A stretch of 54,550 bases of DNA, taken from an uncultured Bacteroidales bacterium (GTDB taxonomy: Bacteria; Bacteroidota; Bacteroidia; Bacteroidales; JAFGXI01). The stretch covers positions 1-54,550 of the forward strand of contig CAMZKE010000021.1 in assembly GCA_947311115.1 (NCBI GenBank), in the 5' to 3' direction. The notes below the pieces were generated by a model. It did not search any database, had not been told where the DNA came from, and was given only the letters and a program-made list of their open reading frames with translations. Made by a program: the position numbers and the translations under genes. Shown here in pieces: positions 32,449 through 54,227 of the stretch. Every line of letters starts with the position of its first letter. Position 1 is the first letter of the stretch.

Positions 32449-35235
32449 ATGAGTTTAAGCAGAAGAGATTTTATTAAAAGTTCGGCAGTAGCAACTGTTG
32501 CTGCGGCTGTAGGCATGAGCTTGCCAAAAAGCTTAAAAGCTGCTCCCAAAAAAGCAGAAGGAGAGTGGCGTTGGGATAAATCAGTGTGTCGTTTTTGTGG
32601 AACAGGATGTGGTATTATGGTAGCAACTAAAAACGATAGAATTGTTGCCGTTAAGGGAGACCCTGCCGCACCTGTTAATCGCGGATTGAATTGTATTAAA
32701 GGTTACTTTAATGCAAAAATTATGTACGGTGAAGACCGTTTAAAAACACCATTAATGCGTGTTGACGCTATGGGTAATTTTAGTAAGAACGGAAAATTTA
32801 AACCTGTTAGTTGGAAAAAAGCTTTCGACGAAATGGAGAAACAAATAAAACGTTCGCTAAAAGAACTTGGTCCAACAGGTATAGGAATTTTTGGTTCGGG
32901 GCAATATACTGTACAAGAGGGATATGCAGCTATTAAATTAATGAAAGCAGGTTTTCGTTCTAATAATATTGATCCAAATGCTCGTCATTGTATGGCATCG
33001 GCTGTAGCCGGATTTATTCAAACATTTGGTATTGATGAGCCTTCTGGTTGTTACGATGATATTGAATTAACAGATACTGTTATTACTTGGGGCTCAAATA
33101 TGGCAGAAATGCACCCAATTCTTTGGTCTCGAGTAACCGATAGAAAACTAAATAATCCTGATAAAGTTAAAATTATAAACCTTACAACTTTTACAAATCG
33201 TACGTCTGATTTAGCTGATACAGAGATTGTTTTTCGTCCGCAAACCGACCTGGCAATATGGAATTATCTTGCAAGAGAAATAGTATATAATTACCCTGAA
33301 GCAATTGATTGGGATTTTGTAAAAAAACATACAGTTTTTGCAACCGGTGTTGTTGATACAGGTTATGGAATGAGAACGCCTGAACATCCTAATTTTACAG
33401 ATAAAGAGCGTGAAACTGTTAAGCAAGAAGTTTCTAAAAAACTATCGAAAGCCGAAGGTGTTTCATTAGCATATTTAGGATATAAAGAAGGTGATACACT
33501 TGAAATGAAAAATAGAGCATCTGCCGGTAAACATTGGCAAATTTCTTTTGAAGATTTCAAAAAAGCCTTAGCTCCTTATACCTTAGATTATGTTGCTGAA
33601 GTTGCAAAAGGTAATCCTGATGAATCAATAGAAGAATTTAAAAATAAATTGAAAGAATTGGCTAAACTTTATGTTGAAAAACAACGTAAAGTTGTGTCGT
33701 TCTGGACAATGGGGATGAACCAGCACACTCGTGGAACATGGGTTAATGAGCAAGCATATATGGTGCACTTTTTACTTGGTAAACAAGCAAAACCCGGAAG
33801 TGGTGCATTTAGTTTAACTGGTCAACCAAGTGCCTGTGGTACAGCACGCGAGGTTGGTACTTTTGCTCACCGTTTACCTGCCGATATGGTTGTTAAAAAT
33901 CCGAAACATCGTGCAACAGCAGAAAAAATATGGATGTTACCTGAAGGTACAATAAATCCGAAAGTTGGCTCTCATGTAATGAAAATTCATCGCGATGTTG
34001 AAGATGGTAAAATAAAATTTATTTGGGTACAAGTAAACAACCCATATCAAAACACAGCAAGTGCAAGTCATTGGATAAAATCTGCACGTAAGCAAGATAA
34101 TTTTATTGTTGTAAGCGATGGTTATCCCGGAATTTCGGCAAAAGTTGCCGATTTGGTTTTACCATCAGCAATGATATACGAAAAGTGGGGAGCATACGGA
34201 AATGCCGAGCGGAGAACTCAACATTGGAAACAACAAGTTACACCTGTTGGTGATGCAATGCCTGATATTTGGCAAATTGTTGAGTTATCAAAACGTTTCA
34301 AAATTCGTGAAGTTTGGGGCGAACAAAATATTCCTGGTTTAGATGCTCCATTACCCGATGTAACAAATAAAGTAGCTGATTTAGGTTATAATCCTAATTC
34401 TACATTATACGATGTGCTTTTTGCGAATAAAAGAGCAAAATCTTTTTCTTGGCCCGACCCAATTGGCTCTGGTTTCCAAAACACCGAAGTTGAGGGCGAT
34501 AAACGTACGGTTTTAGGTGCTGATAATAAAGAGTGGAAAGGTTATGGCTTTTTTATTCAGAAATATTTGTGGGAAGAATATCGTATGTTTGGTGAAGGTC
34601 ATGGACATGATTATGCCGATTTCGATACATACCATAAAGTACGTGGTTTAAAATGGCCTGTTGTTGACGGCAAAGAAACTCAATGGCGTTTTAATTCTAA
34701 ATACGATCCTTATGCTAAAAAGGCAGGAACAGGCGATTTTGCTTTCTATGGAAAAGCTTTAAAAGCAATTCCAGAAGGTGATTTAAAAGGACCTAAAAGT
34801 AAGGATAAAATACCATTGCCAAATAAAGCAAAAATATTTTTCCGTCCGTTTATGGATGCACCGGAAATACCGGATAAAACATATCCATTTTGGTTGTCAA
34901 CAGGTAGAGTTTTAGAGCATTGGCACAGTGGAACTATGACAATGCGTGTTCCTGAGTTATATCGTGCTGTTCCTGAAGCACTTTGTTATATGCACCCAAA
35001 AGATGCTGAATCGAAAGGGATTAAACAAGGTGATTTGGTTTGGGTTGAGTCAAGAAGGGGAAAGGTTAAAGCTCATGTCGATACTCGTGGTAGAAATCGC
35101 CCGCCTCGTGGTTTGGTTTATGTACCTTGGTTCGACGAGAAAGTGTTTATAAACAAAGTTTGTTTAGATGCTACCTGCCCAATCTCGAAACAAACTGACT
35201 TTAAGAAAAGTGCCGTAAATGTATATAAAGTATAA
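32449..35235 (+). CDS. napA: Periplasmic nitrate reductase, catalytic subunit
   Basis: The 928-residue molybdoenzyme reduces nitrate to nitrite in the periplasm. A Tat signal (SRRDFIK, R5-R6) is followed by the 4Fe-4S site C47, C50, C54, C82 with K84 (CIKG), then the bis-MGD domains. The molybdenum ligand is Cys181 in [10 protein letters not shown], which marks NapA rather than NarG or a formate dehydrogenase. The C-terminal region ends with [19 protein letters not shown], as usual for the family. It is the first gene of a co-directional operon with napG, napH, napB, a propeller, napD and a porin. An FNR-like site lies upstream. Confidence 0.95.
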
Positions 35236-35313
35236 CTGAGTATAAAGTGAAAAGCTGAAAGTTATTAGTAATAAACTTTCAACTTTTCAACTTTTAACTT
35301 TTAACTAGTTTAA

Positions 35314-36138
35314 ATGTCAGAAGAAGATAAAACAGAAAATTCTAACGCAACATCGCGTAAAGATGCTCTAAAAACAATGTTTATGGGAGCCGGTTATTTG
35401 GCTCTCGGAGGCATGGTTTGGGGTGGGTACGTAAACGATGTAAAAGCTGAAGAGTTTGTGCTTCGTCCGCCGGGAGCAATAAAAGAAAGCGAGTTTGTAA
35501 AAGCATGTATTAAATGCGGTTTATGTGTTGAGGCATGTCCGTACGATACTTTAAAACTTTCTACTCCAAAAGACAATAAAGTTACAGGCACACCATATTT
35601 TGAAGCAAGAGAAACACCTTGCTATATGTGTACCGATATTCCTTGTGTACCCGTTTGTCCTACCGAGGCATTAAACCAAAAATCGCTTTTCGCATTAGCT
35701 GATGACAATACCAAAAAAATGGATGTAAATAAATCTAAAATGGGCTTGGCTGTTGTTAATAAAGAGTCGTGTATTGCCTTTTGGGGAGTACAATGCGATG
35801 CTTGTTATCGTGCTTGTCCGCTTTTAGATGAAGCAATTACCATTGAGTACGATAAAAATGAACGTACAGGAAAACACGCTTTTTTAAAGCCTGTGGTAAA
35901 TGCCGAAATTTGTACCGGTTGTGGTATATGCGAGCATGCTTGTGTTACCGAAATTCCGGCTATAAAAGTTTTACCGTTAAGTATTGCTACCGGAAAAGTT
36001 GGCGAACATTATATTAAAGGTTGGGATAAAAACGATGAAAAACGTTTGGAAGGTATTGTAGTTGATACAGAAACTGATGATGATAATTCAGGTGCAATTG
36101 ATTATTTAAACGATTCTGACGATTTATTTAATGATTAA
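35314..36138 (+). CDS. napG: Ferredoxin-type protein NapG
   Basis: The 274-residue protein carries four 4Fe-4S clusters: CIKCGLCVEACP, CYMCTDIPCVPVCP, the irregular CIAFWGVQCDACYRACP typical of NapG, and CTGCGICEHAC. The N-terminal SRKDALK followed by a hydrophobic stretch looks like a Tat-type export signal with Arg-Lys, so the clusters should face the periplasm. With NapH it forms a quinol-oxidising module that passes electrons towards NapB and NapA. The gene starts 78 bases after napA, past a spacer of CAACTTTTAACTTTT-like repeats, and overlaps napH by 8 bases. Confidence 0.93.
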   Translation: MSEEDKTENSNATSRKDALKTMFMGAGYLALGGMVWGGYVNDVKAEEFVLRPPGAIKESEFVKACIKCGLCVEACPYDTLKLSTPKDNKVTGTPYFEARETPCYMCTDIPCVPVCPTEALNQKSLFALADDNTKKMDVNKSKMGLAVVNKESCIAFWGVQCDACYRACPLLDEAITIEYDKNERTGKHAFLKPVVNAEICTGCGICEHACVTEIPAIKVLPLSIATGKVGEHYIKGWDKNDEKRLEGIVVDTETDDDNSGAIDYLNDSDDLFND

Positions 36139-36919
36139 AAATAATAAATATCTGATATTAAGAAGGTTTGTTCAATTAACAACTTTATTTCTATTTTTTG
36201 CCGGAGCAAATTTTGGTCTTGGTATTTTAAAAGGAAACTTAAGTACAGCTAATGTGTTTGGTAAATTTCATTTATCAGACCCGTACGCTGTATTGCAAAT
36301 GGCTTTTACAGGATATTTTCCAACTATTGAGATAATTATAGGTGCGGTAATAGTACTCGTTTTTTATTCATTATTAGGTGGGAGAATATTTTGTAGTTGG
36401 GTTTGTCCTTTAAATATTATTACCGATTTTGCATCATATTTAAGAAAGAAATTTAAAATAAAGACTTTGTTAAAATCAGGAATAGTATCTCGTAAAATTA
36501 GATATTATGTTCTTGTTTTAGGACTTATTCTGTCGTTTATAACAGGTGTTGCTGCATTTGAACTTGTAAATCCAATATCAATATTATTTCGAGGAGTAAT
36601 TTTTGGAACTACTTTTAGTTTTACTGCGGTATTCATAATATTTTTATTCGATTTGCTAATTATTGAACATGGTTGGTGCGGACATGTTTGCCCGGTTGGA
36701 GCAGTGTATTCTGCCACAGGAAAATTTCGTTTACTTAAAATTTATCATACATCAGAAAATTGTACGCTATGTATGAAGTGTAAGCATGTTTGCCCTGAAG
36801 TTCAAGTACTTGGTATTATTGGAAAAAAAACAGGAAAAATAAACTCATCGGAATGTACAGATTGTGCACGTTGCATTGATGTATGTGATGATGATGCTTT
36901 AAAATTTAAATTAAAATAA
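36131..36919 (+). CDS. napH: Quinol dehydrogenase membrane component NapH
   Basis: The 262-residue membrane protein has four or five hydrophobic helices and the two cytoplasmic CxxxCP motifs of the family (CSWVCPLN near 97 and CGHVCPVG near 187). Two C-terminal 4Fe-4S sites follow (CTLCMKCKHVCP and CTDCARCIDVC). It takes electrons from menaquinol and hands them to NapG. No NapC tetraheme protein is encoded in the window, so NapGH is the only candidate entry route for electrons here. It overlaps napG and is followed by napB after 10 bases. Confidence 0.93.
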   Translation: MIKNNKYLILRRFVQLTTLFLFFAGANFGLGILKGNLSTANVFGKFHLSDPYAVLQMAFTGYFPTIEIIIGAVIVLVFYSLLGGRIFCSWVCPLNIITDFASYLRKKFKIKTLLKSGIVSRKIRYYVLVLGLILSFITGVAAFELVNPISILFRGVIFGTTFSFTAVFIIFLFDLLIIEHGWCGHVCPVGAVYSATGKFRLLKIYHTSENCTLCMKCKHVCPEVQVLGIIGKKTGKINSSECTDCARCIDVCDDDALKFKLK

Positions 36920-36929
36920 AATTAAAATC

Positions 36930-37541
36930 ATGATAAAAAAAGTATTAATTTTTGGATTTGTTGCCACACTTATGTTTAGTTCGTGCGGTGGTGGCGATAA
37001 TAGCGGAGAAAATACTAATAATGTAAAATCCGTTGATGAAGAAACTTTGGGTTTAATTAAATCTGATGTTCAGAGTGATAATGAAAATTTGCTTGGTGCT
37101 ATGCCACAATATAGTACTAAAGCACCGGGTACTGCCGAAAAAATTGAGCGTTCGTTCGAGAATGCACCTCCAATGATTCCGCATATGACCGATGGATTTT
37201 TCCCAATTACAAAGGATAATAATATTTGTTTAACTTGTCATATGCCTGATAAAGTTGCATCGACAGGTGCAGTTGCTATTCCTCCAACACATTTTACCGA
37301 TTACAGACCAAAAGTGGTTAAAGTTGGCGATAAGTATTCTGTTGATGCCGAGGAAGGAGAGGTTGTTTCAACGAAACTCAGCAATTTATCTGCAGCTCGT
37401 TTTAATTGTTCACAATGTCATGTGCCACAGGCAAATGTAACTGTTGATATTAAAAATACTTTTGATAGAGTTTTTAGAAATGAAGCTTCTAAAACTGGCT
37501 CAAATCTTAACGATAACATTAAAGAGGGCGTTGAAAAATAA
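36930..37541 (+). CDS. napB: Diheme cytochrome subunit NapB, predicted lipoprotein
   Basis: The 203-residue protein has two heme c sites, C100-LT-C103-H104 and C160-SQ-C163-H164. The conserved PPMIPH (H85) and PTHFTDYR (H121) supply probable axial histidines, as in NapB. It receives electrons from NapGH and passes them to NapA. The N-terminus ends in a lipobox, LMFSSC with Cys19, followed by a Ser/Gly/Asn linker, so the subunit is probably lipid-anchored rather than free in the periplasm. Its stop shares one base with the ATG of the next gene. Confidence 0.92.
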   Translation: MIKKVLIFGFVATLMFSSCGGGDNSGENTNNVKSVDEETLGLIKSDVQSDNENLLGAMPQYSTKAPGTAEKIERSFENAPPMIPHMTDGFFPITKDNNICLTCHMPDKVASTGAVAIPPTHFTDYRPKVVKVGDKYSVDAEEGEVVSTKLSNLSAARFNCSQCHVPQANVTVDIKNTFDRVFRNEASKTGSNLNDNIKEGVEK

Positions 37542-46909: not shown

Positions 46910-47446
46910 TTATTGTCCGTCTTTAACTTCTAATTTATTTTTTTCGAAGTATTTACCCATTATTATTCCTAAAATTACAAAAATAGGTATCGATAAAAAT
47001 ATACGAAGTAATGAAAATTGAATACCTAAAAATCCTATTTCGAAGCTTAGCATTGGTATTTTTGCTATTGAGGCTGCACTTAAATAAATAAAAATATTGC
47101 TTGCCGAAGTTCCTTTTTTCCATAGTATGTATGCAACAGGGAATGCGGCATATAACGGACCTGCTTGTAAAAAAGCTAATAGCATTACAAGTAATATACC
47201 TTTAATTCCGGAAGCTTTTCCAATATGTTTTTGTACTTTTTCTTTCGATACCCACACATCAAACAAGCCAACTAAAATAAACATTACCGGTAATGCTATA
47301 ATCATTTCTTTTAGAAACGACCAAAAATTATTCTTAAATATTTGTACACCCGGTTGATATTTATAAACAAAAGAAAAACAAACAAATAAAATAAATAATG
47401 TTATTATTGGAATTGCAAATTTGTATTTTTTTATCGCCGTTTTCAT
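46910..47446 (-). CDS. Permease half, ArsP/DUF318-like (second gene of pair)
   Basis: The 178-residue membrane protein has about five helices and the core LLAFLQAGPLYAAFPVAYILWKKG, which resembles one half of UPF0718/ArsP-type permeases. The preceding gene, 2 bases upstream, encodes a protein with an equivalent region (IIPGFIAYPLSSILLSKG), so the two probably pair to form one transporter. ArsP exports organoarsenicals in other bacteria, but nothing here fixes the substrate. A short charged N-terminus suggests the start is correct. Confidence 0.75.
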   Translation of the reverse strand: MKTAIKKYKFAIPIITLFILFVCFSFVYKYQPGVQIFKNNFWSFLKEMIIALPVMFILVGLFDVWVSKEKVQKHIGKASGIKGILLVMLLAFLQAGPLYAAFPVAYILWKKGTSASNIFIYLSAASIAKIPMLSFEIGFLGIQFSLLRIFLSIPIFVILGIIMGKYFEKNKLEVKDGQ

Positions 47447-47448
47447 AA

Positions 47449-47928
47449 TTATATTATTTGATATATAAATACCATTGAAAAGCCTACTATTAGAGCTCCT
47501 GCAAAAGCCAATAAATTTCTTAATATAGCTGTTTTTAATCCAAAATATTTTGCCTCTAAGGGTATTGTTAATATTCCTACCATTTTTAAAGTGGTAATAA
47601 ATACTGATATAACAGCATAGCTAATACCTTTAGAGAGTAAAATGCTTGAAAGTGGGTATGCTATAAAACCCGGTATTATTGATATTGCTCCAATTAATGC
47701 GGCCGAAACATAAGCCATTAAACCTGCATTTGTACCAAGATGTTTAATTATTACTTCATCGGATACTAAATATAATACAACACTAACTAAAATTATTACA
47801 GACAATAATGTCGGTAGAATTTTTAGAAACATCATAGTACCTTTTTTAATAGCTTTAAAGGTTTTTCTTTTATTGAAAATAAAAGAAATTATTGTTAGTA
47901 TTATTGTTAAAATTATTATTGCTACCAT
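47449..47928 (-). CDS. Permease half, ArsP/DUF318-like (first gene of pair)
   Basis: The start is set at the ATG ending at 47928 (159 residues). An upstream in-frame ATG at 47958 lies inside the -7 promoter box and would precede the transcription start. The protein has about five helices and the repeat region GAISIIPGFIAYPLSSILL, equivalent to AFLQAGPLYAAFPVAYIL of the next gene. In many bacteria both halves are one polypeptide of 300 residues or more. Two separate genes 2 bases apart imply a heterodimer. Substrate unknown. Confidence 0.75.
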   Translation of the reverse strand: MVAIIILTIILTIISFIFNKRKTFKAIKKGTMMFLKILPTLLSVIILVSVVLYLVSDEVIIKHLGTNAGLMAYVSAALIGAISIIPGFIAYPLSSILLSKGISYAVISVFITTLKMVGILTIPLEAKYFGLKTAILRNLLAFAGALIVGFSMVFIYQII

Positions 47929-47955
47929 TATATACAAAATATTTGCATCATTATG

Positions 47956-47987
47956 CAAATGTATATTGATTTATAGTTAATCGCAAA
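47956..47987 (-). promoter_or_regulatory. Bacteroidota-type promoter of the split permease operon
   Basis: On the minus strand TTTG (47987-47984), 20 bases, then TACATTTG (47963-47956) match both consensus elements. Transcription should start near 47950, which fixes the start codon at 47928. Confidence 0.65.
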
Positions 47988-48091: not shown

Positions 48092-48189
48092 TTTAATCTG
48101 TTTGGGTTTAATTCCCGTCCCTTGGGACGTATAAAAGAATAGTATTCCAAAACGATACCTCGTCCGCTTGCGGCGAGGAGATTCATTTA
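48092..48189 (+). repeat. Dispersed two-hairpin repeat, copy B (full length)
   Basis: It is identical to copy A over 98 bases except for one missing C. Its last three bases are the stop codon of the minus-strand fusion gene, so it was probably inserted or copied at the very end of that gene. Confidence 0.85.
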
Positions 48190-51100
48190 GGTATCTAATA
48201 ATTTTTCTAAATAATCAACGCCATAATTAAATAATTTATTATTGTTATCCTTTACAGTATGTTCTATATTAAATATTTGCAAGTCAGTTTTTACAGGCAG
48301 TAACGATATAATTTCATTCATTACATCATTGTAATCGCTTAGTTTGTTTAATCCAAATTTTGCATTAATTGCAATTAATTGTTCAAGTGTAGTTTGTTCA
48401 ATTTTACAATTTATACCGGCATTAAATTGTTGAATTATTTTTTGTGTATTTGTGAAACTACCATTGTTTTCTATAGTGAAACTTGCTGGTAAAATTAAAT
48501 CAGCTTTTTCTGCTGTTTTGGTCATAAAACTATCTTGCACAACAAGAAAATCTACATCAAACCATTTATTTGTTTTTTCAGGTATTAGTGCTGTACCTAC
48601 AGGGTCTTCACCAAAAATAAATATATTCTTAAACTTACCTGTCTCAATAGCTTCAAACGGTTTTATTTTTGCAGTGTTTGGTAATTTGGAAATATTCCAT
48701 GTTTGCTTAACTTTTTCGGCAAATTCTGTATTTTCAAATTTTTGCATTCCAACACTGTGTTTCGGACAAATTCCCATATCGGTTAAACCGTGCGAATTAT
48801 TTTTTTCTTTTATTGCAACAATTCCGTTTGCAGTTTTACCTAATTTACCTGTTATAATTGCTAGGTTATATAATTCAAAACTTGTATTTGCTGAGATTTC
48901 CTCTTCATTAAAGAGCAATATTGCATTTATCTCATTGTTATATTGTTTTGTAAATTCAATAATATCGTTAGGGCAATAAATACCTGATTTATGTACTAAA
49001 TTGGAATACTCTTCGGATAGAAGTTTTTGTTTATATTCTTCAAATCCTGTAGTGCGGTCATTAATAAATAAATTGTTTTGTAAATTATGCGATAAAATAT
49101 AATGATTTACAGCTTTAATGAAGTAATAGAATGAATCAATTTCTATAATATAATCAGCTCTTAATTTAGCTTTTTCGTTAATATTTGTAGTTATTAACTG
49201 TACAGGAATATTTAGCCGTTTGCGTGCATTGTTTATAAAAAATGATGAAACGCCTTTAAATTTATTACCAAAATAGTAGATTTTACTTGCATTTTTAAGT
49301 TCATCAAACTTGGCATTTGCAGTATTATTAAAATGATAACCTATACCACGCCCCATATAATGAAAGCTTGATATGTTGTTGGTTTTAGCACCTGCACGGG
49401 CTAATTTTTGTGCCAAGTAAAGCTCTTCGTTACTCATTCTTGCACCGGCAAAAAACATATTTTCATCAGGTTTAACCGAGCTTATTTTTTCTTTAATAAT
49501 ATTGTATGCTTGATTAAACGATATTTGTTTCCACTGTCCATTTTCTTTTAAAAGCGGTTTTGTAATTCTGTTAGGATTATTAATATATTGATAACCGAAT
49601 TTTCCTTTTTTACATATCAAATCATTGTTAACAAGCCCATTGCTTGAACTAACTTTCATTACATATCCATTACGATGATTTATTTCTATTTCGCAACCTA
49701 CTGAGCAGTAATTACATATTGTTTTAGCTTTATCTAATTTTAATGGTCCAGGTTTAAATTTATAATTTTCGGTAATTGCACCGGTTGGGCAAGTTTCAAT
49801 ACATAAACCGCAACTTACACAATTTGTGTTGTTTAAGCTACTGCCCATAGCAGGTGCAACATAAGTTTCAAATCCTCGATTTACAAGTCCAAGAGCATTT
49901 GCACCAACTACTTCATCGCACATTCTAATACAGCGAGAGCATAAAATACATTTATTATTATCAATTTCTATATATTCGTGCGAAAAATCTATTTTATATT
50001 CTTTAAACTCGCCTTCATACACTTCCTGTTGGGCTCCGTAAGTTGTACTGTGTTCTTTCAGTTCACAATCAAAATACTCAACACAGCCACATTCGATACA
50101 TCGTTGAGCCTCTTTTATTGCAATATTTTCGTTTGCATAACCAAGTTCAACTTCATTGAAATTCATTCTAAGTTCTGTGTCTAAAACGGGCATTTCTTCG
50201 CGTAATTGTCGGGCATATTTTCCTACATATTCTTCGCGAGATTGTTTCTTAAAATTGTCTTTTTTACTTAAAAATTCTTTTTGCTTTGGCTTAATTTCTT
50301 CACCCGCCAAATATTGTTTAACCGAATGTACTGCTATATTTGCTTGAGCAATAGCTTCAATTAGTGTTGCCGCACCTGTTACTCCATCGCCGGCTGCAAA
50401 AACTGAAGGAATACCTGTTTGTAAGGTTTTAGGATTTGCATCAATATCGCCCCATTTATTTATTTTTAACTCGCCTTTATCGGTGTACTTGTTAATATCA
50501 TTAATAAAATTAACATTTGTTTTTTGACCAATTGCGGCTAAAATATAATCTGCTTTAAGTTCAAATTCACTATCCTCAATAGGCATTGGTCTTCTTCGTC
50601 CTGAAGAGTCAGGCTCACCAAGTTTCATTTTAATTAAAGTTATCGATTTTAACTTTCCATTTTCATCTTTGTTTACTTTAGTAGGGTTTGTTAAAATCAT
50701 ATACTCAACGCCCTCTAATTTACTTTCGTGAATTTCAATTGGATTTGCAGGCATTTCTTTTTCGGTACGGCGATAAACAATAACTGTACGTTTTGCACCA
50801 AGACGCTGCGATGTTCTTATGCAATCCATTGCGGTATTTCCTCCACCAACAACTAGAACTGTTTTGCCTGAAAAATCAGGTTTTTTACCTGTCATTTCCA
50901 TTTGGTTGAGAAACTCAACACCGGCGTAAACTCCTTCGGCATTTTCGCCATCAACACCAAGTAAAGTCCCTTTTTGAGAGCCAATAGTTAGAATTGTTGC
51001 ATCGTAATTTTCTTTAATTTTTTTATATGATAAGTTTTCTCCAAAATTTTTGTTATAAAAAATATTTACTCCAAGTTCAGTTATTGTTTCAACTTCTTTA

Positions 51101-51834
51101 TCGAGCAAATCGTTAGGTAGCCTATATTCAGGAATACCGTAACGTAACCAACCACCTGCGTATTTTTTTGCTTCGTAAATATCAACCTGATGTCCTTCTT
51201 GTTGAAGATAATAAGCTGATGTTAAACCTCCGGGACCAGCACCAATAACAGCAACTTTTTTACCTGTACTTTGTTTTACTTCTGGTTTATAATGATTTGT
51301 TGCTAAATCGTAATCAGAGGCAAAACGCTTTAAATAATCTATTCCTACAGGTGCATTTTCGTTTAATAAATTTCTTCTACACGCATCTTCGCAAGGGCGA
51401 ACACACACACGGCCACATATTGCGGGTAATGGGTTTACTTCTTTTATTAATTTAACGGCTTCGGAATACATTCCTTTATCAATAAGCGAAATATAGCCTT
51501 GAACATCGACACCTGCCGGGCAAGTTTCTTTACACGGAGCCGCACAATCAGCATAATGATTGCTTAAAAGCAAATCAAGAGCAGTTTTTCGTGCTTTGTA
51601 AATATCTTTACTATCGGTAATAATTTCCATTCCATCGGTAACTTTTGTTGAGCAAGATGGCTGATTAGCTTTTATTCCTTCAATTTTTACAACACATACA
51701 TAGCACGATGAATATGGCTCAAGGCGTGGGTCGTGGCATAGAGTTGGTATGTGTATCCCTTCGCGTTTTGCAACATCTAAAATTGTATCACCTTCGTTGG
51801 CTTGAATATATTTATTATTTATTTTTATTTTCAT
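48187..51834 (-). CDS. 2Fe-2S / GltD-type flavoprotein / ferredoxin / molybdopterin-fold fusion oxidoreductase
   Basis: The 1215-residue protein has four parts. First is a 2Fe-2S domain (C33, C44, C47, C61). A GltD-type part (about 90-510) has cysteine clusters at 97-105 and 140-152, the FAD loop GAGPGG (198-203) and an NAD(P) loop GGGNTAMD (330-337). Ferredoxin-like cysteine clusters follow (579-584, 629-639, 672-682). Last is a molybdopterin-oxidoreductase fold from about 705, with a 4Fe-4S site C707, C710, C714, C741. At the usual Cys/Sec metal ligand (about 824-827) it reads SSFHYMG, so formate dehydrogenase activity is unlikely. With the NuoE- and NuoF-like proteins upstream it should form a soluble NAD(P)-linked, possibly electron-bifurcating complex. 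Confidence 0.85.
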   Translation of the reverse strand: MKIKINNKYIQANEGDTILDVAKREGIHIPTLCHDPRLEPYSSCYVCVVKIEGIKANQPSCSTKVTDGMEIITDSKDIYKARKTALDLLLSNHYADCAAPCKETCPAGVDVQGYISLIDKGMYSEAVKLIKEVNPLPAICGRVCVRPCEDACRRNLLNENAPVGIDYLKRFASDYDLATNHYKPEVKQSTGKKVAVIGAGPGGLTSAYYLQQEGHQVDIYEAKKYAGGWLRYGIPEYRLPNDLLDKEVETITELGVNIFYNKNFGENLSYKKIKENYDATILTIGSQKGTLLGVDGENAEGVYAGVEFLNQMEMTGKKPDFSGKTVLVVGGGNTAMDCIRTSQRLGAKRTVIVYRRTEKEMPANPIEIHESKLEGVEYMILTNPTKVNKDENGKLKSITLIKMKLGEPDSSGRRRPMPIEDSEFELKADYILAAIGQKTNVNFINDINKYTDKGELKINKWGDIDANPKTLQTGIPSVFAAGDGVTGAATLIEAIAQANIAVHSVKQYLAGEEIKPKQKEFLSKKDNFKKQSREEYVGKYARQLREEMPVLDTELRMNFNEVELGYANENIAIKEAQRCIECGCVEYFDCELKEHSTTYGAQQEVYEGEFKEYKIDFSHEYIEIDNNKCILCSRCIRMCDEVVGANALGLVNRGFETYVAPAMGSSLNNTNCVSCGLCIETCPTGAITENYKFKPGPLKLDKAKTICNYCSVGCEIEINHRNGYVMKVSSSNGLVNNDLICKKGKFGYQYINNPNRITKPLLKENGQWKQISFNQAYNIIKEKISSVKPDENMFFAGARMSNEELYLAQKLARAGAKTNNISSFHYMGRGIGYHFNNTANAKFDELKNASKIYYFGNKFKGVSSFFINNARKRLNIPVQLITTNINEKAKLRADYIIEIDSFYYFIKAVNHYILSHNLQNNLFINDRTTGFEEYKQKLLSEEYSNLVHKSGIYCPNDIIEFTKQYNNEINAILLFNEEEISANTSFELYNLAIITGKLGKTANGIVAIKEKNNSHGLTDMGICPKHSVGMQKFENTEFAEKVKQTWNISKLPNTAKIKPFEAIETGKFKNIFIFGEDPVGTALIPEKTNKWFDVDFLVVQDSFMTKTAEKADLILPASFTIENNGSFTNTQKIIQQFNAGINCKIEQTTLEQLIAINAKFGLNKLSDYNDVMNEIISLLPVKTDLQIFNIEHTVKDNNNKLFNYGVDYLEKLLDT

Positions 51835-51915: not shown

Positions 51916-53703
51916 TTATATACTTAAATTCAGTTTATCTAAAGTTATAGCGTTAAAGTTACATTTTGTAAAACATATACCGCAATGAATACAATCTGCT
52001 TGACGTATAAAATGTACTTCTTTTTTTGAGCCATCGATAGCATCAACCGGACAGCCGATTGCACAAAGTGTACAACCTGTACAGTTATTTGGGTCAACTT
52101 CAAAAGTAATTAATGGTTTGCAATTTAACGATGGGCACCGTTTTTTAACAATATGAGCTTCAAACTCGAAACGAAAATATTTTATAGCTGTTAAAACCGG
52201 ATTTGGTGCAGTTTGTCCTAATCCACAAAGTGAATTATTTTTAATTTGTTCACCAAGCTCTTCGAGTCGTTCAATATCGCCATCTTTACCTTTGCCCTCA
52301 ACAATTCGGTTTAATATTTCCAGCATACGTTTAGTACCAACACGGCAAAATGTACATTTGCCACAACTTTCTTCGGCTGTAAAGTTTAAGAAAAAACGAG
52401 CCATATCTACCATACAAGTAGTTTCGTCCATAACAACCATTCCGCCGGACCCCATAATTGCTCCGGTTGCATTAACACTATCGTAATCTACCGGCGTATC
52501 TATTAAACTTTCAGGAATACAGCCTCCTGAAGGTCCCCCAAGTTGAACAGCTTTAAATTTTTTACCCTTAGGAATCCCTCCGCCAAGTTTAAAAATTATA
52601 TCACGAATTGATATTCCCATTGGTACTTCAACCAAGCCTCCATGATTTATTTTACCTGTTAATGCAAAGACTTTGGTTCCTGTAGATTTTTCGGTTCCAT
52701 ATTTTGAAAATTCTTTTGCTCCGTTTGCTAAAATCCAAGAAATATTTGCAAGGGTTTCTACATTATTTATGTTTGTTGGCTTTTTCCATAATCCGGAAAC
52801 GGCAGGAAAAGGAGGCCGTTTACGAGGCATTCCTCGTTCTCCTTCAACCGATGCTATAAGAGCGGTTTCTTCACCACAAACAAATGCTCCTGCTCCTTCT
52901 TTTACGTATATATTGAGGTTGAAACCATTAATACCCATTATATTATCGCCTAAATAGCCTTTTTCTTTTGCTTGTTTTATTGCAATATTTAATCGTTGAA
53001 TTGCAAGAGGGTATTCTGCTCTACAGTATATTACGCCTTGATTTGCACCAATAGCATAAGCTCCAATTAACATTCCTTCTAATACAGAGTGAGGGTCGCC
53101 TTCAAGTAACGACCTATCCATAAAAGCACCAGGGTCGCCTTCGTCGGCATTACAAATAATAAATTTTTCTTCACTTTTACTTTTGTTTGCAAATTGCCAT
53201 TTTAAACCTGTTGGGAATCCTCCACCACCACGACCTCTAATGCCTGAGTCTAATATTTCTTTTATTACACTTTCTTGCGATAATTTTTCGCTTGCAATTT
53301 TATTTATTGCCGAATAACCACCTCGTTCAATGTATTCATTAATTCTTTCAGGATTAATATAACCACAATTTCGAAGAGCAATTTTTACTTGTCCGTTTAG
53401 AAAGTCTTTTTCGCTTGTTTCAAATTTATCGGTTTTTACTACCCATTCTTTTATTATTTCGTTGTTATTTATGTGGCGTTCAATAATTTCAGTAGCTCGT
53501 TTTTCGTCAACATTGCCATAGATATACGAGCCTTTTTCATCAATAATTTCAACTAGAGGCTCTTTGTAACACATGCCAATACATGATGTTTTATCAAGAA
53601 TAAATTTTTTATCTTTAATTATATTTAGAGTGTTGTAAGTTTTTTTTGCTCCGGCAGCTATTCCACAACTACCAAGTCCCACTATTACTTTTTTTGTTAT
53701 CAT
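51916..53703 (-). CDS. NuoF/HydB-like NADH-binding flavoprotein subunit
   Basis: The 595 residues comprise an N-terminal thioredoxin-like 2Fe-2S region (about 1-90), the FMN/NADH domain (RGRGGGGFPTGLKWQFA, NADEGDPGAFMDRSLLEG), a SLBB region and the N3 cluster motif ESCGKCTFCRVG...SLCGLG. Two C-terminal 4Fe-4S sites end it (CTGCTLCAIGCP, CIHCGICFTKC). The N-terminal 2Fe-2S shows only three ligand cysteines (C13, C41, C45), with alanine where the second is usual. The extra ferredoxin domain is typical of HydB/HndC-type subunits of hydrogenase and formate dehydrogenase complexes rather than respiratory NuoF. It overlaps the NuoE-like gene by 4 bases. Confidence 0.92.
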   Translation of the reverse strand: MITKKVIVGLGSCGIAAGAKKTYNTLNIIKDKKFILDKTSCIGMCYKEPLVEIIDEKGSYIYGNVDEKRATEIIERHINNNEIIKEWVVKTDKFETSEKDFLNGQVKIALRNCGYINPERINEYIERGGYSAINKIASEKLSQESVIKEILDSGIRGRGGGGFPTGLKWQFANKSKSEEKFIICNADEGDPGAFMDRSLLEGDPHSVLEGMLIGAYAIGANQGVIYCRAEYPLAIQRLNIAIKQAKEKGYLGDNIMGINGFNLNIYVKEGAGAFVCGEETALIASVEGERGMPRKRPPFPAVSGLWKKPTNINNVETLANISWILANGAKEFSKYGTEKSTGTKVFALTGKINHGGLVEVPMGISIRDIIFKLGGGIPKGKKFKAVQLGGPSGGCIPESLIDTPVDYDSVNATGAIMGSGGMVVMDETTCMVDMARFFLNFTAEESCGKCTFCRVGTKRMLEILNRIVEGKGKDGDIERLEELGEQIKNNSLCGLGQTAPNPVLTAIKYFRFEFEAHIVKKRCPSLNCKPLITFEVDPNNCTGCTLCAIGCPVDAIDGSKKEVHFIRQADCIHCGICFTKCNFNAITLDKLNLSI

Positions 53704-54227
53704 TTTGCTGTTTGTTCTTTACGTTTTATTTGCTTTATTACTTTTGTAGCCGCTTTGCCGTCTAGGTTTCCATAAGTTTCATCTCCAATCATAATTACCG
53801 GAGCTAAAGAGCAACACCCTAAACATGCAACACTCTCTAATGTGAACAGCATATCTTCGGTTGATTCGCCGTCTTTAATATTTAAAACTTCTTCTAAAGC
53901 TTGGGTTAAAATGGGTGCATCTTGTACGTGGCAAGCAGTTCCATGACAAACTTTTACAATATGTTTTCCTACCGGTTTTAACCTAAACTGCGAATAAAAT
54001 GTAGCAACTCCGTAAATATCGCTTAAAGCGGTTCCTGTCTCTTTACTTATAAGATAAAATGCTTCTTTAGGTATATATCCAAAAATTGTTTGAGTACCCT
54101 GCAGTAAAGGTATTAAGTTTCCTCGCTTGCCTTTGTATTTTTCAATAAGCTTGCTAACAGAGCTTAAATCAATATGTTCTGTTTGAGCTGTATCTTCGAT
54201 GTTTTCAACTATTCTGCCTACTCTCAT
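53700..54227 (-). CDS. NuoE/HydC-like 2Fe-2S subunit
   Basis: The 175-residue thioredoxin-like ferredoxin has 2Fe-2S ligands C94, C99 (CHGTAC), C135 and C139 (CLGCC). Family features include YGVATFYSQF (72-81). It passes electrons between the NADH-binding flavoprotein and other clusters. It is the first gene of the nuoE-nuoF-fusion operon and overlaps nuoF by ATGA. A CRP/FNR-like site lies 50 bases upstream of its start. The rest of a respiratory complex I is absent, so it belongs to a soluble complex. Confidence 0.93.
   Translation of the reverse strand: MRVGRIVENIEDTAQTEHIDLSSVSKLIEKYKGKRGNLIPLLQGTQTIFGYIPKEAFYLISKETGTALSDIYGVATFYSQFRLKPVGKHIVKVCHGTACHVQDAPILTQALEEVLNIKDGESTEDMLFTLESVACLGCCSLAPVIMIGDETYGNLDGKAATKVIKQIKRKEQTAK

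Follow-up and report, generated by a model that had tools for sequence, protein, structure and literature searches.

A predicted Stn-type electron-bifurcating transhydrogenase with an inactive FdhF-like domain in an uncultured Bacteroidales bacterium

The stretch of DNA analysed in this study (the window, 54,550 nucleotides from an uncultured Bacteroidales bacterium) carries three adjoining genes, stnABC, that, to judge from their sequences, very probably encode an electron-bifurcating transhydrogenase of the Stn type (Nfn-Bfu, or BfuABC type 1), a function that is predicted here. The large subunit, StnC, ends in a domain related to formate dehydrogenase (FdhF) whose catalytic site has been lost. 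Stn / Nfn-Bfu complexes with the same architecture and a catalytically dead FdhF domain have already been published, and the complex in the window is the Bacteroidales version of them. Modestly new are relatives that lack the cluster of the FdhF-like domain, the rubrerythrin gene found in most Bacteroidota operons, and the presence of StnC in genomes with no detectable molybdenum-cofactor genes.

Organization of the operon

The genes lie on the minus strand in the order stnA, stnB, stnC, identical to the order in the relatives. The first two overlap by 4 bases, and 81 bases separate stnB from stnC. The genes and the parts of stnC are as follows.

53700..54227, minus strand: stnA (bfuC), NuoE/HydC-like [2Fe-2S] subunit (Pfam; matches 9bov_C, 8oh5_A)
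51916..53703, minus strand: stnB (bfuB), NuoF/HydB-like subunit, FMN/NAD site (Pfam; structure-sequence matches 8oh5_B, 9bov_B, 9n5u_B)
48187..51834, minus strand: stnC (Nfn-bfuA), 1215 aa, [2Fe-2S] + GltD-like NADPH/FAD + NuoG 2x[4Fe-4S] + inactive FdhF-like
51529..51831 (approximate), minus strand: N-terminal [2Fe-2S] domain of StnC, residues 2-102, with Cys33, 44, 47 and 61 (Fer2_4)
50095..51546 (approximate), minus strand: GltD/NfnB-like FAD and NADP(H) module, residues 97-580 (Pfam, conserved residues)
49768..49971, minus strand: NuoG-like 2x[4Fe-4S] domain, residues 622-689 (Fer4_Nqo3; cysteines conserved 28/28)
48190..49767, minus strand: FdhF-like domain, residues 690-1215, inactive, with neither Cys/Sec ligand nor PF01568 (Pfam, alignments, AlphaFold2)
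49351..49371, minus strand: SSFHYMG, residues 822-828, at the place of the Mo/W ligand loop (HMMER and MAFFT alignments)

An earlier note on this DNA had described a chain of 1215 residues in which a GltD-like module sits between a 2Fe-2S domain and a molybdopterin fold, encoded together with NuoE- and NuoF-like subunits. The Pfam matches agree: in StnC they are Fer2_4 (residues 2-75), Fer4_20 (96-178), Pyr_redox_2 (192-498), Fer4_Nqo3 (621-688), Molybdop_Fe4S4 (703-753) and Molybdopterin PF00384 (756-1146), in StnB Complex1_51K/NADH_4Fe-4S/SLBB with a 2x[4Fe-4S] tail, and in StnA 2Fe-2S_thioredx. Both the domain order of StnC (2Fe-2S, GltD, NuoG 2x[4Fe-4S], FdhF-like) and the three-gene operon of NuoE-, NuoF- and GltD/NuoG-like subunits are those of Stn / Nfn-Bfu.

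The stnC frame begins with an ATG at 51834 and runs through 1215 codons with no internal stop to the stop at 48187-48189. Selenocysteine hidden in stnC could be rejected, since the frame has no in-frame TGA, and coding on the opposite strand was likewise rejected, there being no long open frame there. Relatives are intact, with about 53-73% identity along the full length, so the observation is due neither to chance nor to sequencing error. Elsewhere in the window, also on the minus strand, are two adjoining half-length permease genes of the ArsP_1 type (46910-47446 and 47449-47958; 178 and 169 aa). Each aligns to one and the same initial stretch of the profile, which has 294 positions, so the permease is encoded by two genes instead of being a single long protein.

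Comparison with characterised systems

Against the sequences of solved structures, StnC matches 9bov_A (E 4e-233) and 8oh5_C (5e-231), followed by 9n5u NfnA; StnB matches 8oh5_B (E 1e-246), then 9n5u_B and 9bov_B; and StnA matches 9bov_C (E 1.5e-51), then 9n5u_C and 8oh5_A. By their titles, 8oh5 is StnABC of Sporomusa ovata and 9bov is NfnABC of Caldicellulosiruptor saccharolyticus; a literature search on NfnABC cryo-EM found no paper on the latter. Stn bifurcates electrons among NADH, NADPH and ferredoxin, with FMN in the NuoF-like subunit and an inactive FdhF domain (PMC7483475, PMC10482914). The same type was named Nfn-Bfu in a survey of the Bfu family that included members from Bacteroidetes (PMC9304861). 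The proposal of the earlier note, a transhydrogenase-like or flavin-bifurcating NAD(H)/NADP(H)/ferredoxin complex, is thus supported by the match to a known family. The literature searched held no report of activity for the window complex or any other Bacteroidota member.

With StnABC of Sporomusa (8oh5/8oh9; PMC7483475, PMC10482914) the window complex shares the three subunits, the domain order of StnC, the inactive FdhF domain and the C-terminal 2x[4Fe-4S] of StnB. StnB residues 5-588 align end to end with 8oh5_B, including the thioredoxin-like N-terminus and the 2x[4Fe-4S] C-terminus described for StnB/HydB (PMC10482914). The [2Fe-2S], GltD and NuoG cysteines of StnC are kept in 28/28 Bacteroidota rows of the alignment (Cys33, 44, 47 and 61 also in StnC of 8oh5), as are the lysine of cluster C7 (window K169, equivalent to StnC K170) and R238 (StnC R239), two positions that have been tested in Stn. 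The two differ at position C114, which is Val in the window and in all 28 Bacteroidota rows. This could be counted against an Stn-type reading, though two published homologues also have Val/Ile at this position, and C114A halves activity (PMC10482914). In contrast to the Sporomusa system, stnC of Bacteroidota is often followed by a rubrerythrin gene, and some relatives lack the cluster of the FdhF domain.

NfnABC of Caldicellulosiruptor saccharolyticus (9bov/9bp5) is the top match of the window StnC both in sequence and in the fold of the FdhF domain (Z 37.4), but it comes from another phylum, and the identity of that domain to the window is only 26%. Nfn-Bfu of Thermococcus sibiricus, which was shown to bifurcate (PMC9304861), and NsoABC of Thermococcus litoralis have, like the window, a GltD + NuoG fusion with a BfuBC core; they differ in a shorter large subunit with a partial FdhF part. 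HydABC, the electron-bifurcating [FeFe] hydrogenase, has the same BC core, with an H-cluster where the window complex has the GltD/NADPH module; a Pfam scan of StnC found no H-cluster domain, as the earlier note had held. NfnAB/NfnSL catalyses the same overall reaction, and its NfnB/NfnL is related to the GltD-like module, but it has two subunits and uses FAD as its bifurcating site. Stn and Nfn have been reported to be nearly exclusive of each other (PMC7483475, PMC10482914), and the absence of any match to DHODB_Fe-S PF10418, the NfnA/PyrK marker, in the genome from which the window comes is in line with that report.

Rubrerythrin genes beside stnC

Directly after stnC, 18 of the 25 distinct Bacteroidota loci whose flanks are long enough encode a rubrerythrin (PF02915) some 150 residues long (e.g., L013:6951-7424; the flank of L010 is short). 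The window is among the seven without it, and the rubrerythrin gene of its genome lies apart from stnC, on another contig (C116:253-699).

This neighbour counts somewhat against the Stn-type reading, as it could mean another electron acceptor. The complex would then oxidise NADPH without bifurcation and pass the electrons to an acceptor, perhaps to rubrerythrin, which would reduce peroxide, or to sulfur or oxygen, the reaction named for NsoABC. A Rub-Bfu has been predicted in another clade (PMC9304861). I consider a non-bifurcating enzyme very improbable: the window complex has the whole bifurcating core of StnB/HydB, whereas non-bifurcating homologues lack BfuB clusters B2-B5 (PMC9304861), no rubrerythrin gene adjoins stnC in the window, and the published Rub-Bfu proposal concerns operons that have no BfuA (PMC9304861).

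The FdhF-like domain and its lost metal site

AlphaFold2 models residues 690-1215 of StnC with an FdhF fold (pLDDT 90, pTM 0.90). The closest structure to the model is 9bov_A (Z 37.4, 461 residues, 2.4 A); active formate dehydrogenases follow at Z 34-36 and 8oh5_C at Z 33.0. The identity of the domain to characterised proteins is 26-28%, a distant relationship that also counts against the Stn-type reading.

All four cysteines of the FdhF-type cluster (707, 710, 714, 741) are present, confirming the earlier note, and K743 matches K44 of E. coli FdhH (1aa6). The same note had placed SSFHYMG at the position of the catalytic Cys or Sec, and residues 822-828 do align with the loop around FdhH U140 by both HMMER and MAFFT. 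In the HMMER alignment, TNNISSFHYMGRG lies opposite TNNVDCCARV(Sec140)HG, pairing Sec140 with G828 and His141 with R829, while MAFFT with further rows puts a 7-residue gap over Sec140. FdhH R333 corresponds to Lys1009 in both alignments. No Cys or Sec lies in the metal-ligand loop in the window or in 26 distinct Bacteroidota homologues, most of which keep SFHY or a close form there. The Cys-free loop is a fixed state in the clade. Pfam finds no Molydop_binding domain (PF01568, the last cofactor-binding domain) in StnC. With the FdhF fold kept in the model and the catalytic residues absent, the fold has been retained and the active site is gone. The earlier view that no formate site is obvious is borne out, and Stn itself had zero activity when assayed with formate, its FdhF domain being called inactive (PMC7483475, PMC10482914).

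A working formate dehydrogenase (Fdh-Bfu) whose metal has an unusual ligand, a reading for which the FdhF-like fold, the [4Fe-4S] cysteines and K743 might speak, can be given almost no credence, considering that G828 or a gap, R829 and K1009 stand where Cys/Sec, His and Arg are needed, that the Cys/Sec-less loop recurs throughout the 26 homologues, that neither PF01568 nor an in-frame TGA is found, and that StnC occurs in a genome with no detectable molybdenum-cofactor genes (see below).

Relatives lacking the FdhF-type cluster

Six homologues among the 26 distinct ones (L006, L007, L010, L019, L020 and L022) have other residues in place of all four cysteines of the FdhF-type cluster, while those of the other StnC clusters are conserved; a seventh (L004) lacks one. 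On a tree of residues 1-690 the losses can be accounted for by as few as four changes, and branches with good support require two or more. Since this tree has low resolution and a very long outgroup branch, I claim no precise number of losses. Five of the six share a similar motif, with VGC replaced by EGF or EGY; a single origin followed by exchange of the domain would be compatible with this as well.

A broader proposal would have the Bacteroidota Stn work with the rubrerythrin encoded beside stnC, coupling bifurcation to peroxide reduction, with the FdhF cluster no longer needed in some lineages, in contrast to Sporomusa. I regard it as rather unlikely.

Distribution and molybdenum-cofactor genes

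Full-length StnC was found in 11 genomes (among 40 relatives and the window's own genome), and one cultured organism in the set is Perlabentimonas gracilis (L017). Over the phylum, 7 of 395 genomes drawn, the window's own included, pass E 1e-250, a strict cut-off that makes this count a lower bound; five of the seven, at about 41% identity, belong to other families.

Six of the 11 StnC genomes have no match to MoaC or MoeA. In one of these six, G017 (99% complete), there is no match to MoaC, MoeA, MoaA, MoaE or PF01568. The presence of StnC in genomes with no detected molybdenum-cofactor genes agrees with a cofactor-free FdhF-like domain.

In the window's own genome (99% complete) MoaC, MoeA, MoaA and MoaE were likewise not detected, and the one PF00994 match, at 427 aa, has the length of CinA. 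The argument that this genome cannot make the cofactor, and that the domain must therefore be empty, was nonetheless rejected: its PF01568 matches are confined to NapA-like and Psr-like genes, and NapA has Cys in its ligand motif (ARHCMASA). I have therefore made no use of this genome in the argument; G017 is the cleaner case because PF01568 is absent there as well. MoaC is absent from 6/6 genomes of the family, two others of which carry PF01568 proteins of NapA length.

Two further observations may be recorded. The window contains a complete periplasmic nitrate reductase operon (32449-37541, plus strand: NapA, NapG, NapH, NapB-like), and the Psr-like enzyme is encoded on another contig of the genome (C54). 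Separately, genome G010 encodes a stand-alone FdhF-like protein with no GltD part (L012:1363-3066, a frame of 567 aa); it shares 39% identity with residues 703-1210 of StnC.

Proposed mechanism and significance

By analogy with Stn, NADPH would exchange hydride with the FAD of the GltD-like module, and the clusters of StnC would carry electrons to the FMN of the NuoF/HydB-like StnB, where they would be split between NAD+ and, by way of StnA and the C-terminal clusters of StnB, ferredoxin. Physiologically the opposite direction is likely, with NADPH made from NADH and reduced ferredoxin. The FdhF-like domain is not a substrate site and is probably a remnant that serves the folding and assembly of StnC: in Sporomusa the tetramer no longer formed correctly once the domain had been deleted or cysteines of cluster C1 or C2 had been changed to Ala (PMC10482914).

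According to the authors of the Stn structure, it is not clear what clusters C1 and C2 do (PMC10482914). The cluster-less relatives are natural variants that bear on this question: the Sporomusa tetramer was disrupted when C1 or C2 was mutated, yet the FdhF-type cluster has been lost from six sequences of Bacteroidota. More generally, the operon adds a clade of Bacteroidales, most of them uncultured, to the known range of a biochemically characterised bifurcating transhydrogenase, and indicates a way in which these cells could make NADPH.
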